Of a DNA stretch of 64,000 bases, positions 7,577 to 24,315 are shown one piece after another. A program made the position numbers and the translations under genes. This DNA comes from Nitrospira sp. GTDB lineage: Bacteria > Nitrospirota > Nitrospiria > Nitrospirales > Nitrospiraceae. Under the pieces are notes generated by a model, which worked only from the letters and a program-made list of their open reading frames with translations, did not search any database and had not been told where the DNA came from. The first letter of the stretch is position 1. Every line of letters starts with the position of its first letter. The stretch lies in NCBI GenBank assembly GCA_024331045.1, contig JANDJC010000001.1, forward strand, positions 62,001 to 126,000, read 5' to 3'.

Positions 7577-9032
7577 CCGGCTTGTCCTCGATTATAATCC
7601 CTAAGGATGAAAGCTTGCGGCGAATCTCGTCGGCCTTCTTGAAGTCCTTTCGTTGGCGAGCCTCTCCCCGCTCCTTCACAAGACGTTCAATTTCATCATC
7701 GCTCAAACGAGTTGGCCCGGAAGCTCCCCCTTCGCGTTCATGTGCTGCATGGTGCCCAGGTAAACCAGAGAACGAGGCGCCAAACTGCCACGCCTCCAAC
7801 TGAAATAAGCCTAGGACCTTGCCCATTGTCCGAAACGCCTGCCTCGCTTGCGTTCGCCCCTGGTTCGATAACCCGCTTGCGAGTAACTTGTTGATCTCGC
7901 CACGCAGGCCCTGAAGCGCCGCAATCGCCATTGGAGTGTTGAGGTCATCGTCCATCGCCCGGACAAACGACATTCGCGCCCGCTCGATGACGCCATTAAT
8001 ATCACCGTCGCCTTGGGTGGCTGTGTCGTTCGGCTCTTTCAGTCGCTCAAACAGATCATAGAATCCGTTTAAGGCATTCTTCGCCTCTTTCAACGCCTGA
8101 TCAGAAAAATCCACCGGCCCGCGATACTGGGTGGATAACAGAAAATATCGCAGCACCTCTCCCGTCACCGGTTCCGGCCATTCAGACTTGGCGAAGATCT
8201 CCCGGATCGTAAAGAAGTTGCCAAGCGATTTGGACATTTTCTCCTGATTGACCTGGACAAAGCCGTTATGCACCCAGAACCGGGCAAATTCCTTTCCCGT
8301 CGCCCCACATGACTGGGCGATTTCGTTTTCGTGATGCGGGAAGATGAGGTCCATCCCGCCGCCGTGAATATCAAACGTCTCGCCCAGATGTTTGATCGAC
8401 ATCGCGGAACATTCAATGTGCCATCCCGGCCGACCCGGCCCCCATGGACTGAGCCAGGAGGGCTCACCCGGTTTACTGTGTTTCCAAAGGGCAAAATCCA
8501 TGGGGTGGCGTTTTCGCTCGTCCACCTCCACGCGGGCGCCAGCCTGCAAATCTTCCAGCCGCCGTTTGGACAGCCGCCCATAGGGCGGATAGGTGGCCAC
8601 GTTGAAGTACACATCTCCGTCCACGACGTAGGCCAATCCCTTGTCAATGAGGACCTCCGTCAGCCGAATGATGTCCTCGATGTGCTCCGTCGCCTTCGGT
8701 TCCTCCGTTGCGCGCCTGATGCCCAGTCTGTCCATGTCCTCATAGTAGGCTTCAATAAACCGGCTGGTGATGGCTTCACAGGGAACTCCTTGCTCCCGAG
8801 CCCGCGCGATGATCTTGTCATCCACATCGGTAAAGTTTTTCACGAACCGTACGGTATAGCCGCTGTACTCTAAATACCGCCGCAAGACGTCGAAGACGAG
8901 AGCGTTCCTTGCATGGCCGACGTGGCAATAGTCATAGACGGTCACGCCACAGACGTACATGCCGACCATTGGCGGATTGAGCGGCTCGAAGGGTTCCCGT
9001 TTACCTGTCAGCGTATTAAACAGATGCAGCAT
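7551..9032 (-). CDS. cysS: Cysteinyl-tRNA synthetase
   Basis: Class I aminoacyl-tRNA synthetase charging tRNA-Cys. It shows the zinc ligand Cys in MYVCGVTVYD, the HIGH-like HVGHARNALVFD, CSAMSIKHLGETFDIHGGGMDLIFPHHENEIAQS and the KMSKS loop. A C-terminal anticodon-binding region ends in the usual RxxxDxxRxxLxxxGIxxxD pattern. I chose the ATG at 9032 (493 residues; MLHLFNTLTGKRE is the family N-terminus), 10 bp after the dedA stop; an upstream start at 9116 would add 28 atypical residues. No T-box leader is visible. Confidence 0.97.
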   Translation of the reverse strand: MLHLFNTLTGKREPFEPLNPPMVGMYVCGVTVYDYCHVGHARNALVFDVLRRYLEYSGYTVRFVKNFTDVDDKIIARAREQGVPCEAITSRFIEAYYEDMDRLGIRRATEEPKATEHIEDIIRLTEVLIDKGLAYVVDGDVYFNVATYPPYGRLSKRRLEDLQAGARVEVDERKRHPMDFALWKHSKPGEPSWLSPWGPGRPGWHIECSAMSIKHLGETFDIHGGGMDLIFPHHENEIAQSCGATGKEFARFWVHNGFVQVNQEKMSKSLGNFFTIREIFAKSEWPEPVTGEVLRYFLLSTQYRGPVDFSDQALKEAKNALNGFYDLFERLKEPNDTATQGDGDINGVIERARMSFVRAMDDDLNTPMAIAALQGLRGEINKLLASGLSNQGRTQARQAFRTMGKVLGLFQLEAWQFGASFSGLPGHHAAHEREGGASGPTRLSDDEIERLVKERGEARQRKDFKKADEIRRKLSSLGIIIEDKPDGTSRWKR

Positions 9033-9042
9033 GGTGAAATGA

Positions 9043-9678
9043 TCATGATTCAACCTGACGTCGAGGCCAATGCGACCACACGAAATACATCGCGGCCAGC
9101 ACCAACCCTCCCCCAATCACGACATCAAACTGATGGAAGTACTCCCGCAGGTGATCCCATTCCTCACCCAACCGAACGCCAAGATAAGCGAGCCCATAAC
9201 ACCAGGGGAGTGCACCAACAAAGGTAAACAACGCGAAGCGCGGAAAATTCATCCTGGCAATGCCGGCAGGCAGCGAAATGAACGTCCGCACCACGGGTAA
9301 CATCCGGCTGAAGAACACAGCGGCTTCTCCATATCTGGCAAACCATTGGTCGGCGATATCAAGATCGCGTCGAGACATCAACAAGTATCGTCCATATCGT
9401 TCGACCAACGGTCGGCCGCCCCACACGCCAGCCCAATAGGCCACGATGGAGCCGATCAGATTGCCAGTGGCTCCGGCCAGCGTCACCCCCCACATCGTAA
9501 ATTGACCAGTCGCCACTAGATAACCGGAAAAGGGCATAATGATTTCGCTTGGAAGCGGAATACAGGCGCTTTCGATCGCCATTGTCATGACAATGCCGGT
9601 GTAGCCGAACAGGGAGATCGTCTCGATGACGAAGTGGCTGAGCTTGGCGAGCATCCACTCGATGGCCTGGCCGATCAC
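9043..9678 (-). CDS. DedA-family membrane protein
   Basis: 211-residue inner-membrane protein of the DedA/SNARE-associated (PF09335) family, proposed lipid-carrier scramblases such as undecaprenyl-phosphate flippases. Seen directly: the N-terminal hydrophobic hairpin, ESACIPLPSEIIMPFSGYL, the glycine-rich GATGNLIGSIVAYWAG, and the conserved FFSRMLPVVRTFISLPAGIARM with its essential arginines. It overlaps the surE stop by four bases and is followed closely by cysS, so it sits in a surE-dedA-cysS-rlmB operon. Substrate unknown. Confidence 0.92.
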   Translation of the reverse strand: MIGQAIEWMLAKLSHFVIETISLFGYTGIVMTMAIESACIPLPSEIIMPFSGYLVATGQFTMWGVTLAGATGNLIGSIVAYWAGVWGGRPLVERYGRYLLMSRRDLDIADQWFARYGEAAVFFSRMLPVVRTFISLPAGIARMNFPRFALFTFVGALPWCYGLAYLGVRLGEEWDHLREYFHQFDVVIGGGLVLAAMYFVWSHWPRRQVES

Positions 9679-10496
9679 GTCTGACGCCGCCTCTTCCGGT
9701 GATTCACCGATGGACTGAGCCGGTGATTGGCACTCCGCCTGTTCCGTGCCTGGAGTATCGATTCCCAGGCTCGGAACCGGTCCAGCGCACTGTAGTTCGT
9801 CGTATCGAGCCGAAGGGGGGTTAGTGAAACGGCTCCCTCCGCGATGGCCTCGTGATCGGAATCTTTGCTACGACTCCACGACAGGCGGGTCCCCGCGATC
9901 CAGTAGTAGCATCGTCCATGGGGATCGACTTTCTCAATAATGGGATTGTCGAACCGTCTGCGGCTGAGCGCGGTGACCCGCACGCCGACAATCGACCTGA
10001 GCGGGCGATCCGGAATATTAAGATTGACCAGCGTTTCCTCCGGCAACCCCTCCTCCATGATCAATCGAGCCACCAGGACCGCATAATGTGCCCCCACGTT
10101 GAAACGAAACCGGCCCTGCCCTTCCTGGGAGACCGCCATCGACGCCACGCCAAGAATCGTTCCTTCCACGGCGGCGGATACGGTTCCTGAATAGAGCACA
10201 TCGTCGCCTAGATTCACTCCCCGATTAATACCAGAGACCACCAATTGGGGAGGCTTGGGCATGATTCTCTGCACCGCCAGATTGACACAGTCCACCGGCG
10301 TCCCGCTGACCGCATAGATTCGTTTCCCGATGGCATGGACCCGCAGAGGCTTGTGGAGTGTCACGGCATGAGCCACGGCGGTTCGTTCACGATCGGGCGC
10401 CACGACCCACACCTCGCCGAGTTTCGTCATGGCAGAAGCCAGCGCCTGGAGGCCAGCGGAATGGATACCGTCATCGTTGGTCACCAGAATACGCAT
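9675..10496 (-). CDS. surE: 5'/3'-nucleotidase SurE
   Basis: Metal-dependent phosphatase hydrolysing nucleoside monophosphates, linked to stationary-phase survival. N-terminal MRILVTNDDGIHSAGL carries the metal-binding DD pair. VAPDRERTAVAHAVTLHKPLR, VSGTPVDCVNLA and VVSGINRGVNLGDDVLYSGTVSAAVEG are all family signatures. The 273 residues are close to typical. First gene of the surE-dedA-cysS-rlmB run. The last 20 or so residues are basic and unlike the family. Confidence 0.95.
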   Translation of the reverse strand: MRILVTNDDGIHSAGLQALASAMTKLGEVWVVAPDRERTAVAHAVTLHKPLRVHAIGKRIYAVSGTPVDCVNLAVQRIMPKPPQLVVSGINRGVNLGDDVLYSGTVSAAVEGTILGVASMAVSQEGQGRFRFNVGAHYAVLVARLIMEEGLPEETLVNLNIPDRPLRSIVGVRVTALSRRRFDNPIIEKVDPHGRCYYWIAGTRLSWSRSKDSDHEAIAEGAVSLTPLRLDTTNYSALDRFRAWESILQARNRRSANHRLSPSVNHRKRRRQT

Positions 10497-10859: not shown

Positions 10860-11216
10860 CTATCGCGAATGGGCCTCGATGAGGTCGACGATCGCTTGGA
10901 GGTCTCCCCTGAGCTTCTTTGCGATTTCTCTGGGTGGAAGCGGCCGCGATGAGGCCCGTGTCCGGCGGACCCAATATCGTTTGACCCCTTCTAACGTATG
11001 GCCTTCCTCGTAAAGCATGCGTTTGATTTCCAGAATCGTCTCAATATCTCGTTGCACATACAATCGCTGGTTACCACTGCTTTTCCTCGGTTTGAGAAAG
11101 CTGAACTGCGACTCCCAGAAACGGAGGACATACGCGGGAACCTTCGTTAGTTTGCTGACCTCTCCAATCTTATAAAAAATTTTACTCCCCAGCCTGGGTT
11201 CCTCTCCCCTGCCCAT
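10860..11216 (-). CDS. MerR-family HTH regulator
   Basis: 118 residues. A winged-helix MerR domain covers most of the protein: [28 protein letters not shown], then [36 protein letters not shown]. There are no effector-binding cysteines or B12 domain, so it resembles the short MerR proteins often found next to ihfA in deltaproteobacteria and Nitrospirota. GAGGG precedes the ATG. It lies 190 bp after ihfA on the same strand and may be cotranscribed. Target unknown. Confidence 0.88.
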
Positions 11217-13851: not shown

Positions 13852-14451
13852 ATGCAGCCCAGATGGTTCTTGGTCATGGCCCTCATCATCGGTATCGGCA
13901 GTCTTGCTCTTTTGGCCTACCTCCTGTCCCGATCGTTGGCAGGTCCGTCCATTGGCAAGGAGGAACTCTTGGCGGAAATTGTCAAAGATTGGCAGGCAGC
14001 CCACCCAGCAGAGCATCGGTTTGAGGTCCTGCCTTCGTTCAACAACGCGGCCGTCTTGGACAAGGAAACTGGCCTGATCTGGGAACTGGCGCCGGATCCT
14101 ACGCCCGTCACATGGAACGACGCCCGTGCTGTATGCGGACGTCGGGTGGTCGGAGGCCAAAAGGGATGGCGCCTACCCTCCCCTGCTGAGATGCGGAGCC
14201 TCGTCGGACCAGCGATCGACGCACCAGGCCCTCATATTCCTCCTGGCCATCCGTTCCAAAACGTCGCCCAGACCTCCTACTGGACCGTTGTGCCCGAAGC
14301 CAATCAGCCGCCCTACGCCCGTTACCTCGATGCCTTTCTAGGGAATGTCTTAAGCTTCGTCAAGATCTACACCTTCCCGGTCTGGTGTGTTCGCGGCCCT
14401 GTCCGCACAGAAAGTTGGCCGCTGGTACCTGACGGAACCAGCGGATCGTAA
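13852..14451 (+). CDS. Membrane-anchored DUF1566 (Lcl-type) domain protein
   Basis: 199 residues. A single N-terminal membrane helix (about 6-26, FLVMALIIGIGSLALLAYLL) is followed by an exported domain with the DUF1566 pattern: VLDKETGLIWE, W.DA...C, GWRLPSPAEMRSLV, SYWT and VWCVRG. The fold is C-type-lectin-like, related to the SUMF1 domains encoded 2-4 kb away. Function unknown; the position near the SUMF1-fold genes may be meaningful. It converges on carH. Confidence 0.8.
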   Translation: MQPRWFLVMALIIGIGSLALLAYLLSRSLAGPSIGKEELLAEIVKDWQAAHPAEHRFEVLPSFNNAAVLDKETGLIWELAPDPTPVTWNDARAVCGRRVVGGQKGWRLPSPAEMRSLVGPAIDAPGPHIPPGHPFQNVAQTSYWTVVPEANQPPYARYLDAFLGNVLSFVKIYTFPVWCVRGPVRTESWPLVPDGTSGS

Positions 14452-14533
14452 CTGCCCAAGCACTGACTGCTCCTCGAGTGGCACGTCTCAACGAACCACC
14501 TCGACATTCCCCTCCCACGATCAGCCTCACCGA

Positions 14534-15457
14534 CTATGAAGAATGGGGGACGGCGAATCGTTCCGCTAACAATCTGGTGAGACGACGCTGGAATTGAATC
14601 AGGTCATCGAGTAACTCGACGCGGGTTCCGCGCAACATCCCCTCCAGAGCACGGGCTCCCTCCCCTCCCATGGCCACGGGCCACCGTGCCGCCACATCAT
14701 CCAATTCCCTCAGAAGCTGTATCGTGTTGTCGGGTGATCTCACTTCGGTGAGGGATAAGAGAACAAGCTCCGGTTTGATTCGGTCACAAAACGACGCCAA
14801 GGAAGCAGTTGGAAGATTAGGGCCAAGATAGTACACGTGACAGCCCCGCATGGCGGCCAGGTACGCGACGGCCTGCGCTCCAATTTCATGCCATTCGCCC
14901 TCTGGGCAGGCAATCAGGAGTCGTGGTCCATGTTCATTGACCGGCAACTGGTTCATGACGGCAAAGAGTTTCTGTTGAATGAGCTTCGTCACATAATGTT
15001 CGACCGCGATGTCGATTTTTCCTTGGTGCCAAAGCTCCCCCACCAGCCGTTCTAACGGAAGCAGGATCCGCTGAATAGCCTCTTCAAATGGAATGACAGC
15101 CACTGCCCCGTTGAGTTTTTGCTCAAAGCGGACCTTATCGAGAGGATCAAGGCACGCAGCTAATTCCTCAAGGAGTGTCTGCAGAGGGGCCAGTTCTTGT
15201 TGCTTGGGCACTGCATCCAGCCTCATACGCTGAAGCAAGGACTCCCGCCCTTCAATTGCCAGGGCGCCAATGGTCTGGCCTCGATCTAGTTCTTCTTTCA
15301 AGAACCTCAATAAGGCCACATCTTCATCGGTGTATTCTCGGTAGCGATTGGGACTGCGGAGAGGCTTGACAAGTCCGTATCGCTTCTCCCAGACCCGTAT
15401 TACATCTCTGGATAGACCGGTTAATTTTGCAACCCTGTGAATTCTATGGGCTTTCAT
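14534..15457 (-). CDS. carH: CarH/LitR-type B12-dependent photoreceptor repressor
   Basis: Cytoplasmic transcriptional repressor expected to bind DNA as an adenosylcobalamin-loaded tetramer in the dark and to release it when light breaks the Co-C bond. Residues 5-65 form a MerR winged helix (VAKLTGLSRDVIRVWEKRYG). Residues 90-175 fit the four-helix B12-capping bundle with W143-x9-E153-H154, the Wx9EH signature of light-sensing CarH proteins. Residues 178-300 are a Rossmann B12 domain with E188-W-H190-E-I-G193, the ExHxxG motif whose His ligates cobalt. Its target is probably the divergent operon carrying photolyase (start 15587), next to which a three-repeat operator lies. The start ATG 15457 is only 7 bp from a good -10 box, suggesting a leaderless mRNA. 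The symbol is by motif and context. Confidence 0.92.
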   Translation of the reverse strand: MKAHRIHRVAKLTGLSRDVIRVWEKRYGLVKPLRSPNRYREYTDEDVALLRFLKEELDRGQTIGALAIEGRESLLQRMRLDAVPKQQELAPLQTLLEELAACLDPLDKVRFEQKLNGAVAVIPFEEAIQRILLPLERLVGELWHQGKIDIAVEHYVTKLIQQKLFAVMNQLPVNEHGPRLLIACPEGEWHEIGAQAVAYLAAMRGCHVYYLGPNLPTASLASFCDRIKPELVLLSLTEVRSPDNTIQLLRELDDVAARWPVAMGGEGARALEGMLRGTRVELLDDLIQFQRRLTRLLAERFAVPHSS

Positions 15458-15463
15458 GTTTTT

Positions 15464-15492
15464 ATCCTAACGCGATGTCTAGCGTTTGTCAA
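15464..15492 (-). promoter_or_regulatory. carH promoter, probably leaderless
   Basis: On the reverse strand, consensus TTGACA (15492-15487), a 17-bp spacer and TAGGAT (15469-15464). The carH ATG begins 6 bases after the -10 box, so transcription should start at or within a base or two of the ATG. Confidence 0.65.
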
Positions 15493-15511
15493 TCGTTATA
15501 GAAAATAACTC

Positions 15512-15539
15512 TTGACAAAAATGAGTGTGTGTCTATACA
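15512..15539 (+). promoter_or_regulatory. Promoter of the light-response operon
   Basis: Consensus TTGACA (15512-15517), a 16-bp spacer and TATACA (15534-15539). The predicted start is near 15546, inside the direct-repeat operator. It lies back to back with the carH promoter, the two -35 boxes being 19 bp apart. Confidence 0.7.
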
Positions 15540-15570
15540 TTGAACACAGAATGAACGAACATTGAACAAC
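15538..15570 (+). promoter_or_regulatory. Candidate CarH operator: three 11-bp direct repeats
   Basis: Three contiguous 11-mers: CATTGAACACA (15538-15548), GAATGAACGAA (15549-15559) and CATTGAACAAC (15560-15570). The TGAAC core recurs at 15541, 15552 and 15563, an exact 11-bp period. CarH of Thermus binds three tandem 11-bp direct repeats in this geometry with one repeat over a promoter element. Here the first repeat covers the end of the -10 box, so bound protein would block initiation at the forward promoter. Repeats seen directly; CarH binding inferred. Confidence 0.7.
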
Positions 15571-15586
15571 TAACAAGGAGTCACCT

Positions 15587-15889
15587 ATGGCTTTTCTCAC
15601 TTTGTCACAACCAACCACGGAACCCCAAGTCGAAACCGGCATGCCCTCCTCCTCAACTTGGAACTTACCGGCCTCCTGCATGAGATGCGGAGGACTCATG
15701 GTTGATCATATCTGTATGGATCTCTGCAATACCGGCCATGAGCTCGAGTTCGCCGCGCTCCGATGTATTCAATGCGGCGATATTGTCGATCCTGTGATTC
15801 TGTACCACCGCCAGCGGGGCCAGACTCGGCCACCCATTGAACCATATCAAACGGCGACTCCCATCCCAGATCCGAAAGTGGCCCTCTAG
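15587..15889 (+). CDS. Small double zinc-ribbon protein
   Basis: 100 residues with two CxxC pairs, CMRCGG (about 31-36) and CIQCGD (about 64-69), plus further Cys/His between them (HICMDLCNTGHE), suggesting one or two bound zinc ions. The N-terminal 28 residues and C-terminal tail look unstructured. AAGGAG is six bases before the ATG. It is the first gene behind the operator-controlled promoter, so it should be strongly light-induced if the CarH model holds. Function unknown; a protein- or DNA-binding accessory role is possible. Confidence 0.85.
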   Translation: MAFLTLSQPTTEPQVETGMPSSSTWNLPASCMRCGGLMVDHICMDLCNTGHELEFAALRCIQCGDIVDPVILYHRQRGQTRPPIEPYQTATPIPDPKVAL

Positions 15890-15944
15890 AAGAGAGGTGA
15901 GGCTTCATAAACGACCGTTGCAATTTCTGCGAGGGAGGATAACC

Positions 15945-16949
15945 ATGCGGAGTCAACAGATGGTCAATCACAACAACCCCTTCGGCTTGCCCCTCAGACT
16001 CCTGGGACTGGTTCTGCTGATAGGACCAGGGGCTCTTTTCTCTCTGGTCATGGCTACAGACAGTCCCGCAGCCGACACGGACATGGTCCTGATTCCCCAC
16101 GGTGAGTTCACAATGGGGAGCGATGAACATTCCGACGAGCCCAAACACCAAGTGGTGCTCGATGCCTACTACATTGATAAGTACGAGGTCTCCAACGCTC
16201 GATACAAGGCTTTTATGAACGCGACGGGGCATCCAGCCCCCGCCTATTGGGACGACCCCCGGCTAAACAAACCCGAACAGCCGGTTGTGGGGGTCAGTTG
16301 GACCGACGCCGCAGCCTTCTGCAAGTGGGAGGGGAAAAGACTGCCTACGGAAGCGGAATGGGAACGGGCGGCTAAGGGCCCCTCGGGCGACAACCATTAT
16401 CCATGGGGCCATACGCTTGACCCGAGTAAAGCCAACTATGGTCAACATGTCGGGCGCACTACCCCCATTGATTCATATCCAGATGGGGTGAGCGGCTTTG
16501 GCGTTTATAACATGGCGGGAAACGTTTTCGAATGGGTCCAAGACTGGTACGATCCCAACTACTATAGGCAGAGTGTTGCCCTCAACCCCCAGGGACCAAA
16601 AAAGGGATACAACTTTGCCAACCAGGGACCAGTACGGGTCCTCCGGGGAGGGTCATGGTTAGCACCAGGGACATCGCTCCATACCAGCCACCGATTTTGG
16701 AATCAGCCGGACAACAATTCGTACGGAGTGGGGTTGGGATTCCGCTGCGCCAAATCGGTCTGGGTCATTTCTGATGAGCTCAGGCAAGAGGCACGGGAGG
16801 CTTTCATCCAGACCCTCGTCTTCATGGGTGCTGAAAAGTACGCCAACGCCTTAACCACGATCAACAAAGCCTTAGCCATCGACCCAGACAACCAAGAATA
16901 TCTCGCCACCCGCGAGCTTATTCACAATGCAATGAAACGATCCAAATAA
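15945..16949 (+). CDS. Exported SUMF1-fold protein with TPR-like tail
   Basis: 334 residues from ATG 15945, chosen for its GGGAGG box. A signal or anchor segment (LLGLVLLIGPGALFSLVMA) precedes a formylglycine-generating-enzyme-type fold: MVLIPHGEFTMGS, YYIDKYEVSNARYKAFM, PVVGVSWTDAAAFCKWEGKRLPTEAEWERAAKG, YPWG, YNMAGNVFEWVQDWYD, RGGSW and LGFRCA. The two catalytic cysteines of true FGE are missing from the segment after RGGSW, so sulfatase-activating oxidation is unlikely. About 60 C-terminal residues resemble a TPR hairpin (ALTTINKALAIDPDNQEY). Likely periplasmic; a structural or assembly role is a guess. Confidence 0.85.
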   Translation: MRSQQMVNHNNPFGLPLRLLGLVLLIGPGALFSLVMATDSPAADTDMVLIPHGEFTMGSDEHSDEPKHQVVLDAYYIDKYEVSNARYKAFMNATGHPAPAYWDDPRLNKPEQPVVGVSWTDAAAFCKWEGKRLPTEAEWERAAKGPSGDNHYPWGHTLDPSKANYGQHVGRTTPIDSYPDGVSGFGVYNMAGNVFEWVQDWYDPNYYRQSVALNPQGPKKGYNFANQGPVRVLRGGSWLAPGTSLHTSHRFWNQPDNNSYGVGLGFRCAKSVWVISDELRQEAREAFIQTLVFMGAEKYANALTTINKALAIDPDNQEYLATRELIHNAMKRSK

Positions 16950-17055
16950 CGACAGGCGGGACAGATCGGTTCCGCCACAGTAGTACGGCTGTGCTGGTTC
17001 CAGAAACCTGGAGACTGTTCCCTTCATCAAGCAAAATGGATGGTGAAAGAGACCA

Positions 17056-17427
17056 ATGAATAGGCCCTTACTCCTCGCCAGTCTGGGATGCATCGTACTC
17101 CTCTGGTCGGCTCCATTAAGCGCCGGCCCCCTTGAGGGGGCAGAGGGTGCTCACCCTGATCAAGAACTCCTCCGAGCGATACACCAGGCCGCCCATGAAG
17201 TGGATGAGGCCTGGGACGTCTATCACCGAGCGGCGCTCGGAGGAACCGTGGCATCGCCCGAACTCCAGTCTTCGATAGAAGATCACCTGCACGAAGCGCG
17301 AACGCTCATTACCCAGGCCCTTGAAGCCGTTCAGCAGAGAGACCACCGCGCAGTGGAACACCTCCTACGACTCGTTCGGATCCATACCACTCAGGCAATT
17401 GAGGGAAGCCAGGAGCCCAAGCAGTAA
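17056..17427 (+). CDS. Small exported helical protein
   Basis: 123 residues with a clear signal peptide (MNRPLLLASLGCIVLLWSAPLSAG). The rest is helical and rich in His and Glu (LLRAIHQAAHEVDEAWDVYH, VQQRDHRAVEHLLRLVRIHT). The many histidines could bind metal or haem, but there is no CxxCH. Its TAA overlaps the ATG of the next SUMF1-fold gene (TAATG), so the two are coupled. The family was not recognised. Confidence 0.75.
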   Translation: MNRPLLLASLGCIVLLWSAPLSAGPLEGAEGAHPDQELLRAIHQAAHEVDEAWDVYHRAALGGTVASPELQSSIEDHLHEARTLITQALEAVQQRDHRAVEHLLRLVRIHTTQAIEGSQEPKQ

Positions 17428-18308
17428 TGACTGGTTCACGCCATTCCATCATCGAACTTGCTTGCCTCGCCTTGATAATGCTCACGGTGGGGACCGCACG
17501 GGGAGCATTCACGTCCCCTCCTGCTCCGCACGAACCAGATCCGGTGCCAATGGTAACCATTCCGGCTGGTGAATTTCTGATGGGGAGCCCGGAAGGACAA
17601 GGTCGCCCGGACGAATGGCCCCAGCGATCTATCTATCTCGATGCATTTCAAATTGATCAAGTCGAGGTGACCAATGAACGGTACATGCGATTCGTTAAGG
17701 CAACCGGCCATCGCCCTCCTCCTAATCCGTTTGGCCCCGGTGTCCTCCAATCCATTGAAGGTATCGAGCAACTGCCGGTCGTCCAGACGACCTGGTACGA
17801 TGCCAAGGCCTATTGCGCCTGGGCCAAAAAACGTTTGCCAACGGAGGCCGAGTGGGAGAAAGCCGCCCGGGGCACCGACGGCCGTCTCTACCCCTGGGGT
17901 AACGATCCCCCCACTCCCCAGCGAGCGAACTTTGACCGGGAGTGGGATCATGTGCGAACGCTGTATCCCGTTGGATCACTTCCTGGGGGGGACTCTCCCT
18001 ATGGGGTCAAGGATATGGCGGGCAATGCACGAGAATGGGTGGCCGATTGGTATGAGGCGGGGTACTATGCCCAGGCACCGGACCGCAATCCCCAGGGGCC
18101 AGAAAAAAAGGGGGTTGTTCGATCCATTCGAGGGGGATCCTGGCACAGTCCTGCCAATGATATTCGGACTGCAGCCCGAGGGCGAGGTGGGTTCGCCCTG
18201 CAAACACACGGAACTGGGTTTCGATGTGCCAGGAGCCTTTCGTCACCATCGCCGTCAAGCAAACCGACCGAGCCATACGACAAGAGGATGATAGAGAGTA
18301 ATGAGTAG
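17427..18308 (+). CDS. Second exported SUMF1-fold protein
   Basis: 293 residues. A signal peptide (about 1-27) precedes a SUMF1 domain: MVTIPAGEFLMGSPEGQGRPDEWP, FQIDQVEVTNERYMRFVKATGH, PVVQTTWYDAKAYCAWAKKRLPTEAEWEKAARG, YPWGND, MAGNAREWVADWY, IRGGSW and GTGFRCAR. As in the first copy, no cysteine pair follows RGGSW, so formylglycine-generating activity is not expected. It is clearly diverged from the 15945 protein and lacks the TPR-like tail. Coupled to the small exported protein before it; both probably act in the periplasm. Confidence 0.85.
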   Translation: MTGSRHSIIELACLALIMLTVGTARGAFTSPPAPHEPDPVPMVTIPAGEFLMGSPEGQGRPDEWPQRSIYLDAFQIDQVEVTNERYMRFVKATGHRPPPNPFGPGVLQSIEGIEQLPVVQTTWYDAKAYCAWAKKRLPTEAEWEKAARGTDGRLYPWGNDPPTPQRANFDREWDHVRTLYPVGSLPGGDSPYGVKDMAGNAREWVADWYEAGYYAQAPDRNPQGPEKKGVVRSIRGGSWHSPANDIRTAARGRGGFALQTHGTGFRCARSLSSPSPSSKPTEPYDKRMIESNE

Positions 18309-18418
18309 AAGGAGGCCAATCGTTTTCCAAGCGACAAGGACCGTCGCCAGCGCGTGGTGGAGGCCGGTCACCGGGGCCGCGACGCTACTCCGCACGGCGC
18401 AGCCCCCTGAGGCAGCTC

Positions 18419-18442
18419 GGGTCTCTCATGATTGAGGGACCC
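18419..18442 (+). terminator. Hairpin inside the light operon
   Basis: A 10-bp stem with one G-T wobble: GGGTCTCTCA (18419-18428) pairs with TGAGGGACCC (18433-18442) around a TGAT loop. It lies in the 217-bp gap after the second SUMF1-fold gene. No T-run follows, so it may attenuate or stabilise the transcript rather than end it. No clear promoter was seen between it and the next gene at 18526. Confidence 0.5.
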
Positions 18443-18525
18443 GGCTCCTCAGCACCCTCACCCATCAGAGACGCCAGACGGTCAGCCGGTCACAGGATTT
18501 CCCGGTGAAAGAAGAAGAGGGCGTC

Positions 18526-18768
18526 ATGACAACACTTATCTTCCTTATGTTCGTGCTTATGTTCGTGATGGGGACCTTGATCCGCTTCATCATAACCTCC
18601 ACAAGGATTCACGCTCCAATACTGAGACGGGTGGACAGAACAGGTCCACCTCGGCGGCGGCAGCTCCGCAGAGGCGAACATCCTCTCGATCCCTATCACA
18701 AGATAACAGCGGCGGGACGCTGCAACACGGATCCGTTACCCCCTGAAGGGAGGATCTTGAGCCTATGA
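18526..18768 (+). CDS. Small single-span membrane protein
   Basis: 80 residues from ATG 18526, which has GAGGG upstream; an in-frame start at 18505 would add seven acidic/basic residues. One N-terminal membrane helix (TTLIFLMFVLMFVMGTLIRFII) precedes a basic cytoplasmic tail with many arginines. The stop overlaps the ATG of the TIGR01777 gene (ATGA), which supports it being translated. Function unknown. Confidence 0.65.
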   Translation: MTTLIFLMFVLMFVMGTLIRFIITSTRIHAPILRRVDRTGPPRRRQLRRGEHPLDPYHKITAAGRCNTDPLPPEGRILSL

Positions 18769-19679
18769 ACATCGTCATTGCTGGTGGAACAGGATTCATC
18801 GGTCGAGCCCTGTGCGCTTCCTTGCTTCAGGGAGGGCATCAGGTGACCGTTCTCACCAGGAGAAGAGGAACCCTCCAAGGAGCGACCGCTAACCCACGGG
18901 TCATCGAGTGGGACGGTCAACGAGAAGGAGCCTGGGAATCGTGCCTCGATGGAGCTGATGCGGTCATCAACCTCGCAGGGGCTCCGATCGCAGAGTCACG
19001 GTGGACGGAGGCGCGGAAGCGCGAACTTGTCGACAGCCGCATCCTTTCCACCCGTGCCCTTGTCCGAGCCATGGCTAAACAAGCCTCTCGTCCTTCTATT
19101 CTTATCAATGCCTCGGGCATCGGCTATTACGGAGCCAGTGATGATCGGGTCCTGGATGAACAATCGCCAGCAGGGCAGGGGTTCCTCGCCGACCTCTGCC
19201 TCCAATGGGAAGCAGAAGCACAGCGTGCCAGTCAATTCGGGAGTCGAGTGGTACTGCTTCGAACCGGCATGGTGCTGGAACGGGACGGTGGCGCGTTGCC
19301 GCGGATGGTGTTCCCTTTTAAATTGTTTATGGGGGGCCCGATCTTGCCCGGCAATCAATGGGTCTCTTGGATTCACCGCCAGGACCACATTGGGTTAATC
19401 CGGTGGGCTCTCGAGACCCCGCATGTCACGGGCCCACTCAATGCGGTTGCGCCGGAGCCGGAGACCATGAGCAGATTCTGTTCTATCCTGGGGCTGGTCC
19501 TTCACCGCCCATCCTGGCTCCCTGTGCCTCGCATGGCGCTGCGATTTGCGCTCGGAGAGCTCGAATCGCTCTTGACGACCGGGCAGCGAGTACTGCCATC
19601 CAAGGCACTGGCCGGGGGCTATGTCTTTCAGTTCCCCACACTGGAATCCGCCTTACGAGCGATCATCTCCGCGAAATGA
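18765..19679 (+). CDS. TIGR01777-family NAD(P)-binding oxidoreductase/epimerase
   Basis: 304-residue extended SDR protein. N-terminal MNIVIAGGTGFIGRALC (GxxGxxG) precedes VINLAGAPIAESRW, SASGIGYYG-like INASGIGYYGASDD, VVLLRTGMVLERDGGALPRM, WVSWIHRQDHIGLI and a C-terminal DUF1731-like region (AGGYVFQFPTLESAL). YfcH-like family members recur in LitR/CarH light regulons next to photolyase. Substrate unknown. Overlaps the small genes on both sides by four bases. Confidence 0.9.
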   Translation: MNIVIAGGTGFIGRALCASLLQGGHQVTVLTRRRGTLQGATANPRVIEWDGQREGAWESCLDGADAVINLAGAPIAESRWTEARKRELVDSRILSTRALVRAMAKQASRPSILINASGIGYYGASDDRVLDEQSPAGQGFLADLCLQWEAEAQRASQFGSRVVLLRTGMVLERDGGALPRMVFPFKLFMGGPILPGNQWVSWIHRQDHIGLIRWALETPHVTGPLNAVAPEPETMSRFCSILGLVLHRPSWLPVPRMALRFALGELESLLTTGQRVLPSKALAGGYVFQFPTLESALRAIISAK

Positions 19680-19822
19680 CGATGCGCGCCTCTCGCCAAC
19701 TATCAAATCCGCTTTCCGTCCCTCACCCAAACGTTGCTCACGCGCGTCGCGTTTTGGCGCTGGCGGCCCTCGTGCTTGAGCAAGCACTCGACCAGGGCAG
19801 GCAGAAGATGAATCGAATCTAG
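19676..19822 (+). CDS. 48-residue ORF between oxidoreductase and photolyase
   Basis: Starts at an ATGA overlap with the preceding gene and ends 10 bp before the photolyase ATG. The product has a basic N-terminus and one helix (ARRVLALAALVLEQALDQG) but no known domain. Tight coupling on both sides and the absence of other use of this space favour translation. It does not match the small zinc-finger DUF2256 often found beside phr. It could be a mere leader that couples translation. Confidence 0.45.
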   Translation: MTMRASRQLSNPLSVPHPNVAHARRVLALAALVLEQALDQGRQKMNRI

Positions 19823-19832
19823 GAGGAGCACC

Positions 19833-21281
19833 ATGCGGGGACTCATGTGGTTTCGCAGGGATCTTCGGCTCGCCGATCAACCGGCGTTGAGTGCGGCCTG
19901 TACGGAATGTGATCAGGTGATTCCCTTGTTCGTCTTTGATGATCCGCTGCTTCAATCAAAAGAGTTCGGAGCTGCCTGCGTGAACTTCATGCTCGGCTCG
20001 TTGCGCGAGTTGGCCACCTCATTGGAGGCGCGGGGGCTTGCGCTCCAATGGCGGCGTGGTGATCCAGTCGAGGAAGTGGTAAGGGCCGCTCGCGACTGGA
20101 AGGCCGACGTCGTTTACTGGAACCGCGACTACGAACCGCGTGCCATCCTTCGAGACCAACTGGTTCAGCGGGAACTCGAGCGGATGGGCCTTATCGTCAG
20201 GACGTTCAAGGATCATGTGGTGTTCGAGCCTCAGGACATTCGAGGAGTAAGCGGCGAACCATTGCAACGATATAGTGCCTACCGAGCGCGCTGGTGGGCC
20301 CAGTGGTCCACCCACAAGCCGAGAGCACTACCGGTCCCTGCCGCGCTCCGCTCCTCCAAACAGGCTATGGGACTGCCATCCAGCCCGTTGCCTTCTGCGG
20401 AGGAACTGGGATATGCCTCCTTCGATCCGTGGATCGAACCGGGCGAACAACAAGCTTGGAAACGATTGCGCTGGTTTTGCGAAGGCCCTCTCCACCGCTA
20501 TGGCACAGGCCGCAACATCCCCGGCATTGAGGGGAGTTCGAAACTGTCTCCTCATTTTCGTTTCGGCACGATCTCTCCCCGTGCCGCCATTCTGGCGGCC
20601 CTTAAAACTTTGAGGAAGGGACGGGCAGGCGTCTCCCGCCCCGACGTGTTCCTCTGGATTGATGAGTTGATTTGGAGGGAGTTCTTCCAGCAGATCTTGG
20701 CCGAATTTCCCCACGTCATCTCGGGACCGTTTCGGCGGGAGGTTGCCCCACCCGTTCGCGAACCGGGCCACGAACGAGACCGGCTCTTTCAGGCCTGGTG
20801 TGAAGGGAAGACTGGCTACCCCATCGTGGACGCTGGCATGAGGCAATTGCGGCAAACCGGCTGGATGCACAATCGCGTGCGCATGATCGTCGCCTCATTT
20901 TTGGTCAAGGATCTTCGCATCGACTGGCAGAGCGGCGAACGGTATTTCATGGCCCACCTGCTGGACGCCGACGTAGCAGCAAACAACGGGAATTGGCAAT
21001 GGTGCGCCTCGACGGGCACGGACGCCATGAAGGGCTACCGCATTTTTAATCCGACCTTGCAAGGCAAAAAGTTTGACCCAGATGGTCTCTACATCCGACG
21101 CTATGTTCCAGCATTGGCCTCGGTCCCGACGGCCAACATTCACGAGCCGCATCTGATGGCCCTCAGCGAGCAGGAAGAGGCCCGTTGCCGGATCGGCGTC
21201 GATTACCCGGCCCCCATCGTGGATCATCGTCAGGCCCGTGAGGACTATCTCAGGCTCAGCACGCAAAAGAGGACGCCATGA
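19833..21281 (+). CDS. phrB: Deoxyribodipyrimidine photolyase, class I CPD type
   Basis: 482-residue light-driven DNA repair flavoprotein that splits cyclobutane pyrimidine dimers. N-terminal antenna domain: GLMWFRRDLRLADQPAL and VIPLFVFD. FAD domain: RYGTGRNIPGIEGSSKLSPHFRFGTISPRAA, WRDFF-like IWREFFQQIL, QAWCEGKTGYPIVDAGMRQLRQTGWMHNRVRMIVASFLVKDL, and NNGNWQWCASTGTDAMKGYRIFNP with the FAD-contacting Asn and Trp. AGGAGG precedes the ATG. The core gene of the light-responsive operon; it overlaps the next gene by four bases. Confidence 0.97.
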   Translation: MRGLMWFRRDLRLADQPALSAACTECDQVIPLFVFDDPLLQSKEFGAACVNFMLGSLRELATSLEARGLALQWRRGDPVEEVVRAARDWKADVVYWNRDYEPRAILRDQLVQRELERMGLIVRTFKDHVVFEPQDIRGVSGEPLQRYSAYRARWWAQWSTHKPRALPVPAALRSSKQAMGLPSSPLPSAEELGYASFDPWIEPGEQQAWKRLRWFCEGPLHRYGTGRNIPGIEGSSKLSPHFRFGTISPRAAILAALKTLRKGRAGVSRPDVFLWIDELIWREFFQQILAEFPHVISGPFRREVAPPVREPGHERDRLFQAWCEGKTGYPIVDAGMRQLRQTGWMHNRVRMIVASFLVKDLRIDWQSGERYFMAHLLDADVAANNGNWQWCASTGTDAMKGYRIFNPTLQGKKFDPDGLYIRRYVPALASVPTANIHEPHLMALSEQEEARCRIGVDYPAPIVDHRQAREDYLRLSTQKRTP

Positions 21282-22240
21282 CCTCCCTTCCACTTCGTCT
21301 GGGAATCAGCCGATGTCTGCTGGGCGACCCCGTGCGTTACGACGGAGGGCATAAGCGAGACCCCTTTTTGACGGATATCCTGGGCCCCTATGTCGAGTGG
21401 GTGCCCGTCTGCCCCGAAGTGGAGGCAGGGCTGGGAATCCCCCGGGAGGCCATGAGACTGGTCTGGAGAGCACACCAGCCCCAGCCAGTCCGCCTTGTCA
21501 CCATTGCAGGGGGAGTCGATCATACCAAGGCGCTGATGGCCGCCACTGCGAAACGGTTGGAAGAACTTGCCGCGCTTGACCTGTGCGGGTATGTCTTTAA
21601 AAAGAACTCCCCCAGTTGTGGTCTTGAGCGCGTCCGCATCTACAACGAACACGGCATGCCTAGTCGAAGCGGCGCCGGGCTCTTCGCCCAAGCCTTTCGG
21701 GAAACGTTTCCGCTGATTCCTGTAGAAGAGGAAGGACGTCTCTGCGACCCCGCCATCAGGGAAAACTTCATCGAGCGGGTCTTCTGCTACCAACGGTATC
21801 GACAACTACTACGCAACGGAGTCACGCGGCAAGCGGTGGTTCGGTTTCATACGATCCATAAATATCTGTTGCTTGCTCACAGTCCACAGGATTACGAACG
21901 GCTCGGCAGACTGGTCGGCCACGCCCACCACTTCGGGCCTCGAGAGTTGGCCGTGAAATATGGCCCCCTCTTCATGAAGGCCCTCGCGGTCAAGGCTACG
22001 GTCCGCAAACACGTCAACGTGTTGCACCATATCGTGGGACATTTCAAAGACCGTTTGACCGCCGGCGAGAAATCCGAATTGCTGAGCGTTATCGGCGACT
22101 ATCAGCGGGGGCTCACGCCCTTAATCGTACCACTTACATTGATTAAACATTACGTGCAGCTCTTCAACGTCGAATACGTCCGCGACCAGATTTACCTCAA
22201 TCCCCACCCCAAGGAATTGATGCTGCGCAATCACGTCTAA
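21278..22240 (+). CDS. DUF523-DUF1722 protein (YbgA fusion)
   Basis: 320 residues. The N-terminal DUF523 domain (about 1-155) has conserved cysteines in ISRCLLGDPVRYDGGHK, VPVCPEVEAGLGIPRE and KKNSPSCG, matching the iron-sulfur cysteines of TudS-type thiouracil desulfurases. The C-terminal DUF1722 domain (about 190-310) has FHTIHKYLLLAHSP and HHFGPRELAVKYG. This fusion is commonly encoded beside phr in light-controlled operons. Repair or salvage of photodamaged (perhaps thiolated) nucleobases is plausible but unproven. ATGA overlap with photolyase. Confidence 0.9.
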   Translation: MTSLPLRLGISRCLLGDPVRYDGGHKRDPFLTDILGPYVEWVPVCPEVEAGLGIPREAMRLVWRAHQPQPVRLVTIAGGVDHTKALMAATAKRLEELAALDLCGYVFKKNSPSCGLERVRIYNEHGMPSRSGAGLFAQAFRETFPLIPVEEEGRLCDPAIRENFIERVFCYQRYRQLLRNGVTRQAVVRFHTIHKYLLLAHSPQDYERLGRLVGHAHHFGPRELAVKYGPLFMKALAVKATVRKHVNVLHHIVGHFKDRLTAGEKSELLSVIGDYQRGLTPLIVPLTLIKHYVQLFNVEYVRDQIYLNPHPKELMLRNHV

Positions 22241-22262
22241 TCGTCTCATTTGGAGGAGCTCT

Positions 22263-22781
22263 ATGAAAACAGGGAAGCAAGGAGTCGTGTTGGTCGGGCA
22301 TGGTGGAATTCCCAAGGATTGTCCGCAAGAGCTGGTGACCAAGTTGAAGCGGCTGGAAGCCCAACGACGAGCCACCCACCAGCCGCCATCGAGCGAAGAA
22401 CTCGAGCTGGATACAACGATTCGTCGCTGGCCGAGGACAGCAGAGACCGATCCCTACCTGTTTGGACTCCAAGCGGTGGCCGCACGCTTGCAAGCTCAAT
22501 TAAACGGCGTCTTGTTTGGCATCGCTTTTAATGAGTTCTGCGCCCCGACACTAGAAGAATCCGTCCAAGCCCTGATCAATCGAGGTGCGACCGATGTAAT
22601 CGTGACTACGACCATGTTCACACCCGGTGGAGCCCACTCAGAAATCGAGATCCCGGAAATCCTGGCGCGACTTCGCCCTCTCTATCCTCATGTCACCATC
22701 CGTTATGCTTGGCCCTTCGACATGGATCTTGTCGCCTCAACCCTGGCCGAACAGATCCGACGGTTTACGATCTCTTCTTGA
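22263..22781 (+). CDS. CbiX/SirB-like sirohydrochlorin chelatase homologue
   Basis: 172 residues of the small class II chelatase family, which inserts Co or Fe into sirohydrochlorin for B12 or sirohaem. It has the N-terminal VVLVGHGGIPKDCP (catalytic-His region), FNEFCAPTLEESVQALINRGATDVIVTTTMFTPGGAHSEIEIPEI and a C-terminal IRYAWPFDMDLVASTLAEQI. An insertion at residues 30-60 is unlike short CbiX proteins. Placed after photolyase in a B12-controlled operon, it may serve tetrapyrrole supply; some LitR/CarH regulons carry hemH in this slot. Metal and substrate are not predictable here. Confidence 0.78.
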   Translation: MKTGKQGVVLVGHGGIPKDCPQELVTKLKRLEAQRRATHQPPSSEELELDTTIRRWPRTAETDPYLFGLQAVAARLQAQLNGVLFGIAFNEFCAPTLEESVQALINRGATDVIVTTTMFTPGGAHSEIEIPEILARLRPLYPHVTIRYAWPFDMDLVASTLAEQIRRFTISS

Positions 22782-22885
22782 TATTACGTTGATATGACGC
22801 CGGCCATGATTGTTCTCCCTTTGCCCCCCATCAGGTGTACAATAGCGGCCGCTCGTCAACCAGTCTCTTGCAGGGGGAACGACCC

Positions 22886-23476
22886 GTGACCACGCCGCAT
22901 CATCAATTAGTCCACGCATTCCACGAGACTCAGTCGTTTAAATGGGATCCCGGAAACGGTTTCAAGCTGGCCTCGGGACTGAGGAGTCCCTATTACGTTG
23001 ATTGTCGTTCATTGATGGCCCATCCCCATGCTCGGTGGCTCGTGGCCCAGCTGGGGTACGAACTCTTGAAGCCCCTCGCGTTCGATTGCCTGGGCGGTCT
23101 CGAAATCGGCGCGATTGCCATCGCCACCTCCCTTTCGGACTATGCGCTGATGGCCCAGCCACCGAGAGCCTGGCGAACGTTCGTGGTGCGAAAACAGGCC
23201 AAAGATCATGGGTTGGGCAAATTGGTCGAGGGCGCCATCCACTCAGGGGATCGTGCGGTCATTGTCGATGATGTGTTGACCAGCGGAGGGTCTTTGTTGA
23301 AGGCTATCGCCGCCGCAAGGGCGGCGGGGTTGACGGTTGCGCACGCCTTGGTCATCGTGGACCGGGAAGAGCAGGACGGACGAAACAGAGTGGAACAGGA
23401 AGGGGTGACGGTGCTCAGCCTATTGAGCATTCGCGATCTGACGGCAGGCTTCGTTTCCCCCGCGTCATCGAGATAG
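22886..23476 (+). CDS. pyrE: Orotate phosphoribosyltransferase
   Basis: Pyrimidine synthesis enzyme joining orotate and PRPP to OMP. The signature PRPP loop is AVIVDDVLTSGGSLLKAI. KLASGLRSPYYVDCRSLMAHP, GGLEIGAIAIATSLS and FVVRKQAKDHGLGKLVEG match PyrE. I start at GTG 22886 (196 residues), which has AGGGGGAA upstream; 22835 would add 17 residues from the untranslated leader. It follows the CbiX-like gene by 104 bp and may have its own promoter (TACAAT near 22838), so membership of the light operon is doubtful. Confidence 0.93.
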   Translation: MTTPHHQLVHAFHETQSFKWDPGNGFKLASGLRSPYYVDCRSLMAHPHARWLVAQLGYELLKPLAFDCLGGLEIGAIAIATSLSDYALMAQPPRAWRTFVVRKQAKDHGLGKLVEGAIHSGDRAVIVDDVLTSGGSLLKAIAAARAAGLTVAHALVIVDREEQDGRNRVEQEGVTVLSLLSIRDLTAGFVSPASSR

Positions 23477-23502
23477 GCGCCGAATCCAGGCGGATCTCAA
23501 GG

Positions 23503-23862
23503 TTAGCGGCACTGAAACTCGATGCCCCAACGCCGTTCGTGGATCATTTCTTCCCGCCCCTCGATCAGGCTGACGATCCTGGTTCGTCCTTTGGCCTCCC
23601 CTTCGCGCAGAATCTCGTAGGAGCGATCTCCACACTTCCGACGAATGATGGCCAGGGCCTCGGTTCGAAACGACGAGAGCAAGGGCCCTTGCCCGTCCTT
23701 GAATGGATAGACAACCACCCCGCCGTGTTCCTGTTCCTGAACGAGTTTCGCTCCGTCCGCGCAACCGGCACCCATAACGATCCCCATCACAATGACCGCC
23801 AGCCATGATCTTGACCGACCGTTCTCCGCACTTTTATCATTAAACCACCAAGGGAACCGCAC
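23503..23862 (-). CDS. Probable small lipoprotein
   Basis: 119 residues from GTG 23862, chosen because GGAGG lies six bases upstream. An N-terminal basic region, a hydrophobic run (WLAVIVMGIVMGAGC) and Cys at about residue 34 suggest lipoprotein signal processing, though the lipobox (MGAGC) is not ideal. The mature part (VVVYPFKDGQGPLLSSFRTEALAIIRRKCG) may be a small alpha/beta domain. No family name. Its start is 27 bp from the divergent rhodanese gene, so the two share a promoter region. Confidence 0.75.
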   Translation of the reverse strand: MRFPWWFNDKSAENGRSRSWLAVIVMGIVMGAGCADGAKLVQEQEHGGVVVYPFKDGQGPLLSSFRTEALAIIRRKCGDRSYEILREGEAKGRTRIVSLIEGREEMIHERRWGIEFQCR

Positions 23863-23889
23863 TGAACCTCCATAGAAAGGACTGCCCCG

Positions 23890-24315
23890 ATGACACGTCT
23901 GAGCTGGAACCTGATGGCCGGCCTGCTCGCCACAGTCCTGATGATGGGCGATGTGGCGCTGGGCGCTCCACCCTCTGTCCTGACAGTGGAGCAACTGCAT
24001 AGCGCCCTCTCAAAAGGACGGTCCCGCGAGGAGAAGGGATTTATCCTCGTGGACGTGCGCACGCCCCAAGAACATCGGGCGGGGATGATTCCCGGCACGG
24101 ATTTCAACATCGACTTTCGCGAGATCAAATCCCGTCACCGTGAACTAGGAGCCCAGCCTGATGACCATATTGTGGTCTACTGTCAATCAGGCCGCCGGAG
24201 CAGTATTGCTGCCCAAGCGCTGGCTGAGCTCGGCTACCGTCATGTCTATAATGTCGAGGGCAGCATGAATGCTTGGATGGAGGCCGGCTTCCCCGTTGAA
24301 CGGCCCCCACAATAG
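23890..24315 (+). CDS. Periplasmic rhodanese-like protein
   Basis: 141 residues with a signal peptide (about 1-25, ending VALGA) and one rhodanese domain: ILVDVRTPQEHRAGMIPG, then active-site loop VVYCQSGRRSSIAAQAL with catalytic Cys and GYRHVYNVEGSMNAWMEAGFPVE. Single-domain exported rhodaneses transfer or bind sulfane sulfur; the physiological partner is unknown. AGAAAGGA precedes the ATG. Confidence 0.9.
   Translation: MTRLSWNLMAGLLATVLMMGDVALGAPPSVLTVEQLHSALSKGRSREEKGFILVDVRTPQEHRAGMIPGTDFNIDFREIKSRHRELGAQPDDHIVVYCQSGRRSSIAAQALAELGYRHVYNVEGSMNAWMEAGFPVERPPQ

Follow-up and report, generated by a model that had tools for sequence, protein, structure and literature searches.

The tandem 11-bp repeats between two divergently transcribed genes of a Nitrospira genome very probably serve as the operator for CarH (class I LitR), a photoreceptor-repressor encoded next to them, which would repress both divergent promoters in the dark and release them in the light. 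The genes themselves, a conserved light-response signature, conserved boxes lying across both promoters and further boxes at target promoters that have no carH beside them are seen directly in the sequence; binding, dark repression and release by light we infer from the CarH proteins of Thermus, Bacillus and Myxococcus. The CarH family is a known one, and what is new is the taxon and the set of probable targets in Nitrospiraceae.

The intergenic region of the window (the whole 64-kb stretch of DNA that was analysed) holds a promoter on each strand together with repeat units that are either direct repeats (DR) or pseudorepeats (dr):

15464 to 15492, minus strand: carH promoter, with -35 TTGACA at 15492-15487, a 17-bp spacer and -10 TAGGAT at 15469-15464
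15476 to 15492, minus strand: two-unit direct repeat TTGACA-N5-TAGACA (TnnACA twice, 11 bp apart), whose first unit is the carH -35
15512 to 15539, plus strand: promoter of the target operon, TTGACA-N16-TATACA, with -35 at 15512-15517 and -10 at 15534-15539, supported by a related consensus match
15537 to 15547, plus strand: operator unit B, a DR, acatTgaACAc (TnnACA), which fits the published nnnnTnnACAn
15548 to 15558, plus strand: operator middle unit, a pseudorepeat dr, agaaTgaACGa (TnnACG)
15559 to 15569, plus strand: operator unit C, a DR, acatTgaACAa (TnnACA), which also fits nnnnTnnACAn

As the first-pass annotation had recorded, TGAAC begins at 15541, 15552 and 15563 on the plus strand, at a spacing of exactly 11 bp, beside the divergent carH; the 10-mer ACATTGAACA stands without mismatch at both 15537 and 15559, a distance of 22 bp. 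The window has a single exact triple, against 0.0002 expected in 64 kb from the frequency of TGAAC, and on its plus strand there is no further case of a 5-mer in three copies evenly spaced by 8-20 bp. The looser triple TNRACA/TNRACR/TNRACA at 11 bp has a single site in the 2.85-Mb genome, the one at carH. TGAAC begins 2 bp past the -10 of the target promoter, whose -35 and TATACA are conserved in the genus, and the overlap of the repeats with this -10, claimed at first pass, holds in the CarH register, where the first 11-mer (15537-15547) covers the last three bases of TATACA (15534-15539). The core had been taken to differ from that of Thermus, which proved mistaken: it is the published TnnACA, from a repeat consensus given as nnnnTnnACAn (PMC9304148) or alternatively as nAnnTnnACAn (PMC8156234). 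Units 1 and 3 match it exactly and the middle unit has ACG instead of ACA, the array reading DR-dr-DR in the CarH register. By the first of these consensus forms the region contains 11-bp TnnACA direct repeats that overlap promoter elements, which on sequence grounds makes them the likely operator of the adjacent CarH. Most relatives carry a further box, A, within the spacer between -35 and -10, and this genome lacks it; together with the ACG middle unit this implies that affinity may be lower here. On the opposite strand the carH -10 is separated from the ATG by 6 nt, and by 5-13 nt in nearly all relatives, so that the carH transcript probably has little or no leader. Together, the divergent -35 regions make a 15-nt inverted repeat with 87% complementarity (15485-15519), and a search of 14000-24000 of the window recovered no Rfam elements.

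The gene facing this array on the left has the following architecture:

14534 to 15457, minus strand: carH, 307 aa, with a MerR-type HTH, a B12-binding_2 four-helix bundle and a B12-binding Rossmann domain (Pfam PF13411, PF02607 and PF02310)

This is the domain set of CarH (class I LitR), and the Pfam match to PF02310 (E 5e-11) rules out a class II LitR, which is without this Rossmann domain and retains the four-helix bundle alone. The closest PDB sequences are those of Thermus CarH/LitR (E 2e-30), and a Foldseek search with an AF2 model (pLDDT 88.8) had 5C8F, 5C8D and 5C8E as its top matches. The VIA comparison with the B12 domain of Thermus thermophilus CarH (TtCarH) gave Z 21.2 and an rmsd of 2.6-2.7 A over about 195 residues; the TM-scores of the full-length model are about 0.5 with a large rmsd, values that probably reflect how the HTH is placed relative to the B12 module. 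The first-pass description of a MerR/B12 protein with Wx9EH and ExHxxG motifs is borne out by the Ado-capping residues W143, E153 and H154 and the lower-ligand histidine H190. In TtCarH numbering, 65/65 Nitrospira homologues have W131, E141, H142 and H177, and 64/65 have the bis-His residue H132, which corresponds to H144 next to W143 in the window protein. The light-responsive signature GxxW/EH/GxxH/GxxxP, as published (PMC11796333), is complete in the window protein. Missing is the R176-D201 salt-bridge pair of TtCarH, with W and N at the two positions; position 176 is variable among the Nitrospira homologues and position 201 is Asn in 65/65. Such an Arg-Asp pair at the TtCarH dimer interface occurs in many homologues, not all (PMC9304148), and its absence means that oligomer assembly may differ from that of TtCarH. 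The top NCBIfam match is the CarH equivalog NF052513, at 135 bits and short of a cut-off of 400 that is an annotation threshold and no functional feature. Taken together, these comparisons support a CarH-class protein (class I LitR) with a predicted light response. The genome encodes a PduO-type ATP:cob(I)alamin adenosyltransferase (E 4e-51), and should thus be able to make AdoCbl; no BtuR/CobA adenosyltransferase was found in it. A separate 118-aa ORF with a MerR-type HTH lies at 10860-11216 on the minus strand.

To the right of the repeats a cluster of genes follows on the plus strand:

15587 to 15889, plus strand: orf100, a small Cys-containing protein and the first gene of the target operon, with an RBS (aAGGAG) at about 15576
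15945 to 16949, plus strand: SUMF1/FGE-like protein a (PF03781, E 1.9e-57)
17056 to 17427, plus strand: orf123, conserved in the cluster
17427 to 18308, plus strand: SUMF1/FGE-like protein b (PF03781, E 1.4e-56)
18765 to 19679, plus strand: NAD-dependent epimerase with DUF1731 (PF01370, PF08338)
19833 to 21281, plus strand: phr, a class I-type DNA photolyase (PF03441, E 3e-87; PF00875)
21278 to 22240, plus strand: rudS-like gene, a TudS desulfidase fused to DUF1722 (PF04463 and PF08349 in one ORF), overlapping phr

The order orf100, SUMF1-like a, orf123, SUMF1-like b, epimerase, phr, rudS is conserved in the cluster, and gene order, strand and conservation point to a probable single operon through phr and rudS. 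The phr gene is not the immediate neighbour that it had been taken for at first pass: it follows on the same strand about 4.3 kb downstream, after six intervening ORFs, and belongs to this probable operon. Gaps of about 150-200 bp precede orf87 and phr, making internal promoters possible; a promoter scan of the cluster gave few convincing ones, and internal promoter-like and terminator-like sites within it were not above shuffles. The photolyase is the sole PF03441 match in the genome and scores 429 bits against TIGR03556, under the cut-off of 884.6. The product of 21278-22240 shows the fusion of a TudS domain to DUF1722 that characterizes RudS, a tRNA 4-thiouridine desulfidase often found in light-responsive operons (PMC11417400). 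No Pfam or NCBIfam match was obtained for orf100, whose small, Cys-rich family has homologues in 79/79 genus genomes, with up to 13 copies per genome. More than one SUMF1/FGE-like protein is encoded in this one light-associated cluster (15945-18308). The cluster contains no carotenoid genes, and carotenoid control was discarded, since the 11-bp triple, in the pattern tested, has no second site in the genome and the sole SQS_PSY gene lies on another contig.

The main rival to a light switch, and one that does not exclude it, is that the protein is a CarH-fold sensor of B12 (cobamide) availability acting through the same operator in an AdoCbl-dependent manner, with light of minor importance in nitrifiers that live mostly in the dark. 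CarH repression depends on AdoCbl anyway, N. marina is auxotrophic for B12 and salvages precursors (PMC8115632), and a CbiX-like gene lies just downstream in the window. However, the linkage to cbiX is inconsistent in relatives, 64/65 homologues retain the complete light signature along with H132, a residue specific to photolysis, and phr and RudS, both probable targets, are light-damage genes, so that we regard a pure B12 sensor as unlikely.

The case for a CarH operator draws most on related genomes. Of the conservation anticipated there, the part concerning the TnnACA array stood, both in the genus and in other genera of the family, and the part concerning the literal TGAAC-N6 triplet did not: the triplet is found in 1/64 distinct upstream regions of the genus, that of this genome, and was rejected as the conserved unit. 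Of these upstream regions, 35/64 have the TnnACA A-B-C array, where shuffles predict 0.02, and 14/64 have three TnnRCR units in 11-bp steps, where 0.06 would be expected. The family-wide layout consists of TnnACA boxes A-(21/22 bp)-B-(22 bp)-C at the target promoter, with A within the -35/-10 spacer, B abutting the -10, C downstream and a degenerate unit between B and C. Columns of the three boxes carry 0.87-1.69 bits in the genus upstream regions, against 0.25 just downstream; in the middle unit the ACA columns are conserved at 71/86/71% in the genus and the T is not conserved. A PWM trained solely on the 50-54% paralogue clade, whose training is hence independent of the window's clade, recovers CATTRRACAnn boxes at spacings of 21/22 and then 22 in the 60-90% clade. 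In the window's own subclade box A has been lost, and in the nearest relative (L032, with a CarH 90% identical) the boxes are degraded. Nearly all of 27 loci from a family search, most of them in other genera, have the array. Counts across the two paralogue clades share ancestry and hence are not independent events; the argument for an operator is instead that the boxes were kept while the spacers diverged. A per-locus shuffle test for the strict 11-bp triple gave p<=0.05 in only 42/64, because many loci are spaced at 21/22/23 bp, and the PWM analysis took over from it. On the carH side, a two-unit repeat TTGACA-N5-TnnRCR that holds the carH -35 occurs in 56/64 upstream regions with a shuffled expectation of 0, from which autoregulation is predicted.

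The pattern ATTRGACA-N14-ATTRRACA has 20 matches in the 79 genus genomes and 0 in a reversed control, 18 of them at promoters of carH and 2 at promoters of an orf100 with no carH next to it. PWM scanning places boxes at the promoters of such lone orf100 genes in four genomes (G004, G015, G016 and G018), which indicates that the boxes accompany the target promoter and not carH alone. L123 and L124 carry the array at contig ends, where the absence of carH is uninformative. In genomes without carH, no array was seen at the promoters of weaker orf100 paralogues (L125-L139), bar one weak pair in L135; this is weak evidence, as these paralogues may be non-orthologous. That the repeats bind another regulator, with carH a mere neighbour, appears very improbable: a second MerR-type ORF (10860-11216) does exist, more than 3 kb beyond the carH 3' end, but ATTRGACA-N14-ATTRRACA is confined to carH-bearing genomes (20/20, P 1e-4), with most sites at carH itself, and the boxes fit the CarH repeat and follow carH across two paralogue clades as well as several genera. 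A chance resemblance, in favour of which the literal triplet is restricted to this genome, is scarcely credible and was rejected, since the TnnACA register is kept family-wide within diverged intergenic DNA.

CarH is encoded in 54/79 genomes of the genus, with none in 25/79, and in 97/157 sampled genomes of the family, representing 11/22 genera. The attribution of the window to a Nitrospira-like organism is supported, and the presence of an AMO subunit gene in the host genome (PF02461, E 1.5e-99; G000:C39:29123-29830) suggests that the host is probably a comammox Nitrospira. Some genomes with an AMO gene have a second carH divergent to genes for a NapC/NirT cytochrome and a cytochrome c-SUMF1 fusion. 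This second locus shows the same operator, as for example at L088:6957-8880 on the minus strand, with carH at 9010-9933 on the plus strand.

We propose that in the dark AdoCbl-loaded CarH would assemble such that each DNA-binding domain contacts one 11-bp TnnACA unit on one face of the DNA. Lying over units B-dr-C (15537-15569), it would cover the -10 end and start site of the rightward promoter, and over 15476-15492 it would mask both the -35 and the spacer of the divergent carH promoter. Light in the UV, blue or green would then break the Co-C bond and, after photolysis, H144 beside W143 would become the upper cobalt ligand. Dissociation of the oligomer would open both promoters, and light would thereby induce orf100, the SUMF1-like proteins, the epimerase, the photolyase and RudS, plus more CarH. 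A more inclusive scheme strikes us as possible, if somewhat doubtful: that CarH in Nitrospiraceae, comammox organisms included, runs a SUMF1/photolyase/tRNA-s4U-repair cluster and not pigment genes, assembles in a manner unlike Thermus, as would be suggested by two strong sites at a distance of 22 bp with a weak unit between them and by the lost salt bridge, and through the operator of the second carH wires light to respiration via the NapC/NirT quinol-oxidizing cytochrome.

CarH senses UV, blue and green light, a range that is largely the one inhibiting nitrification in N. inopinata. Light of wavelengths below 550 nm inhibits nitrification in this comammox species; a possible part for gene regulation has been suggested and the molecular response left open (PMC9797979). 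A light-sensor operator conserved in Nitrospiraceae offers a concrete candidate, with defined target genes, for the question of nitrification photoinhibition. The photoinhibition of N. inopinata (PMC9797979) is a motive for testing and no evidence that the CarH system acts there. The literature searched for CarH and Nitrospira together returned no report of such a system. The array also extends the known CarH operators by a natural set of variants that is well sampled.

The Nitrospira system has the domain order, W131/H132/E141/H142/H177 and fold (Z 21) of Thermus thermophilus CarH, and like the three-repeat operator of that species it has tandem 11-bp TnnACA units at a promoter. It differs from Thermus CarH in an identity of about 30%, in not keeping the R176-D201 pair, and in targets that comprise SUMF1-like genes, phr and rudS; the operator units lie on the -35 in Thermus, whereas at the Nitrospira target they lie on the -10 and start. 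The Bacillus megaterium CarH operator, with four DRs or three DRs and a pseudorepeat, is likewise a mixed DR/dr array able to overlap the -10 (PMC9304148). In contrast to it, the Nitrospira array has two strong units 22 bp apart flanking a weak one, and relatives add a box 21/22 bp upstream in the promoter spacer. The myxobacterial CarH/CarA operators show the same DR/dr plasticity and a -35 TTGACA within a repeat, as at the Nitrospira carH promoter, and in Sorangiineae the promoters are divergent as at the Nitrospira locus; unlike the latter, these operators control carotenogenesis. Finally, the class II LitR proteins of Pseudomonas (PplR/PmlR) are comparable in that phr and RudS-type genes are under a LitR family repressor (PMC11417400, PMC9758184). 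However, they have a partial B12 domain and act as effectors of LOV receptors, whereas the Nitrospira protein possesses the complete class I B12 module.
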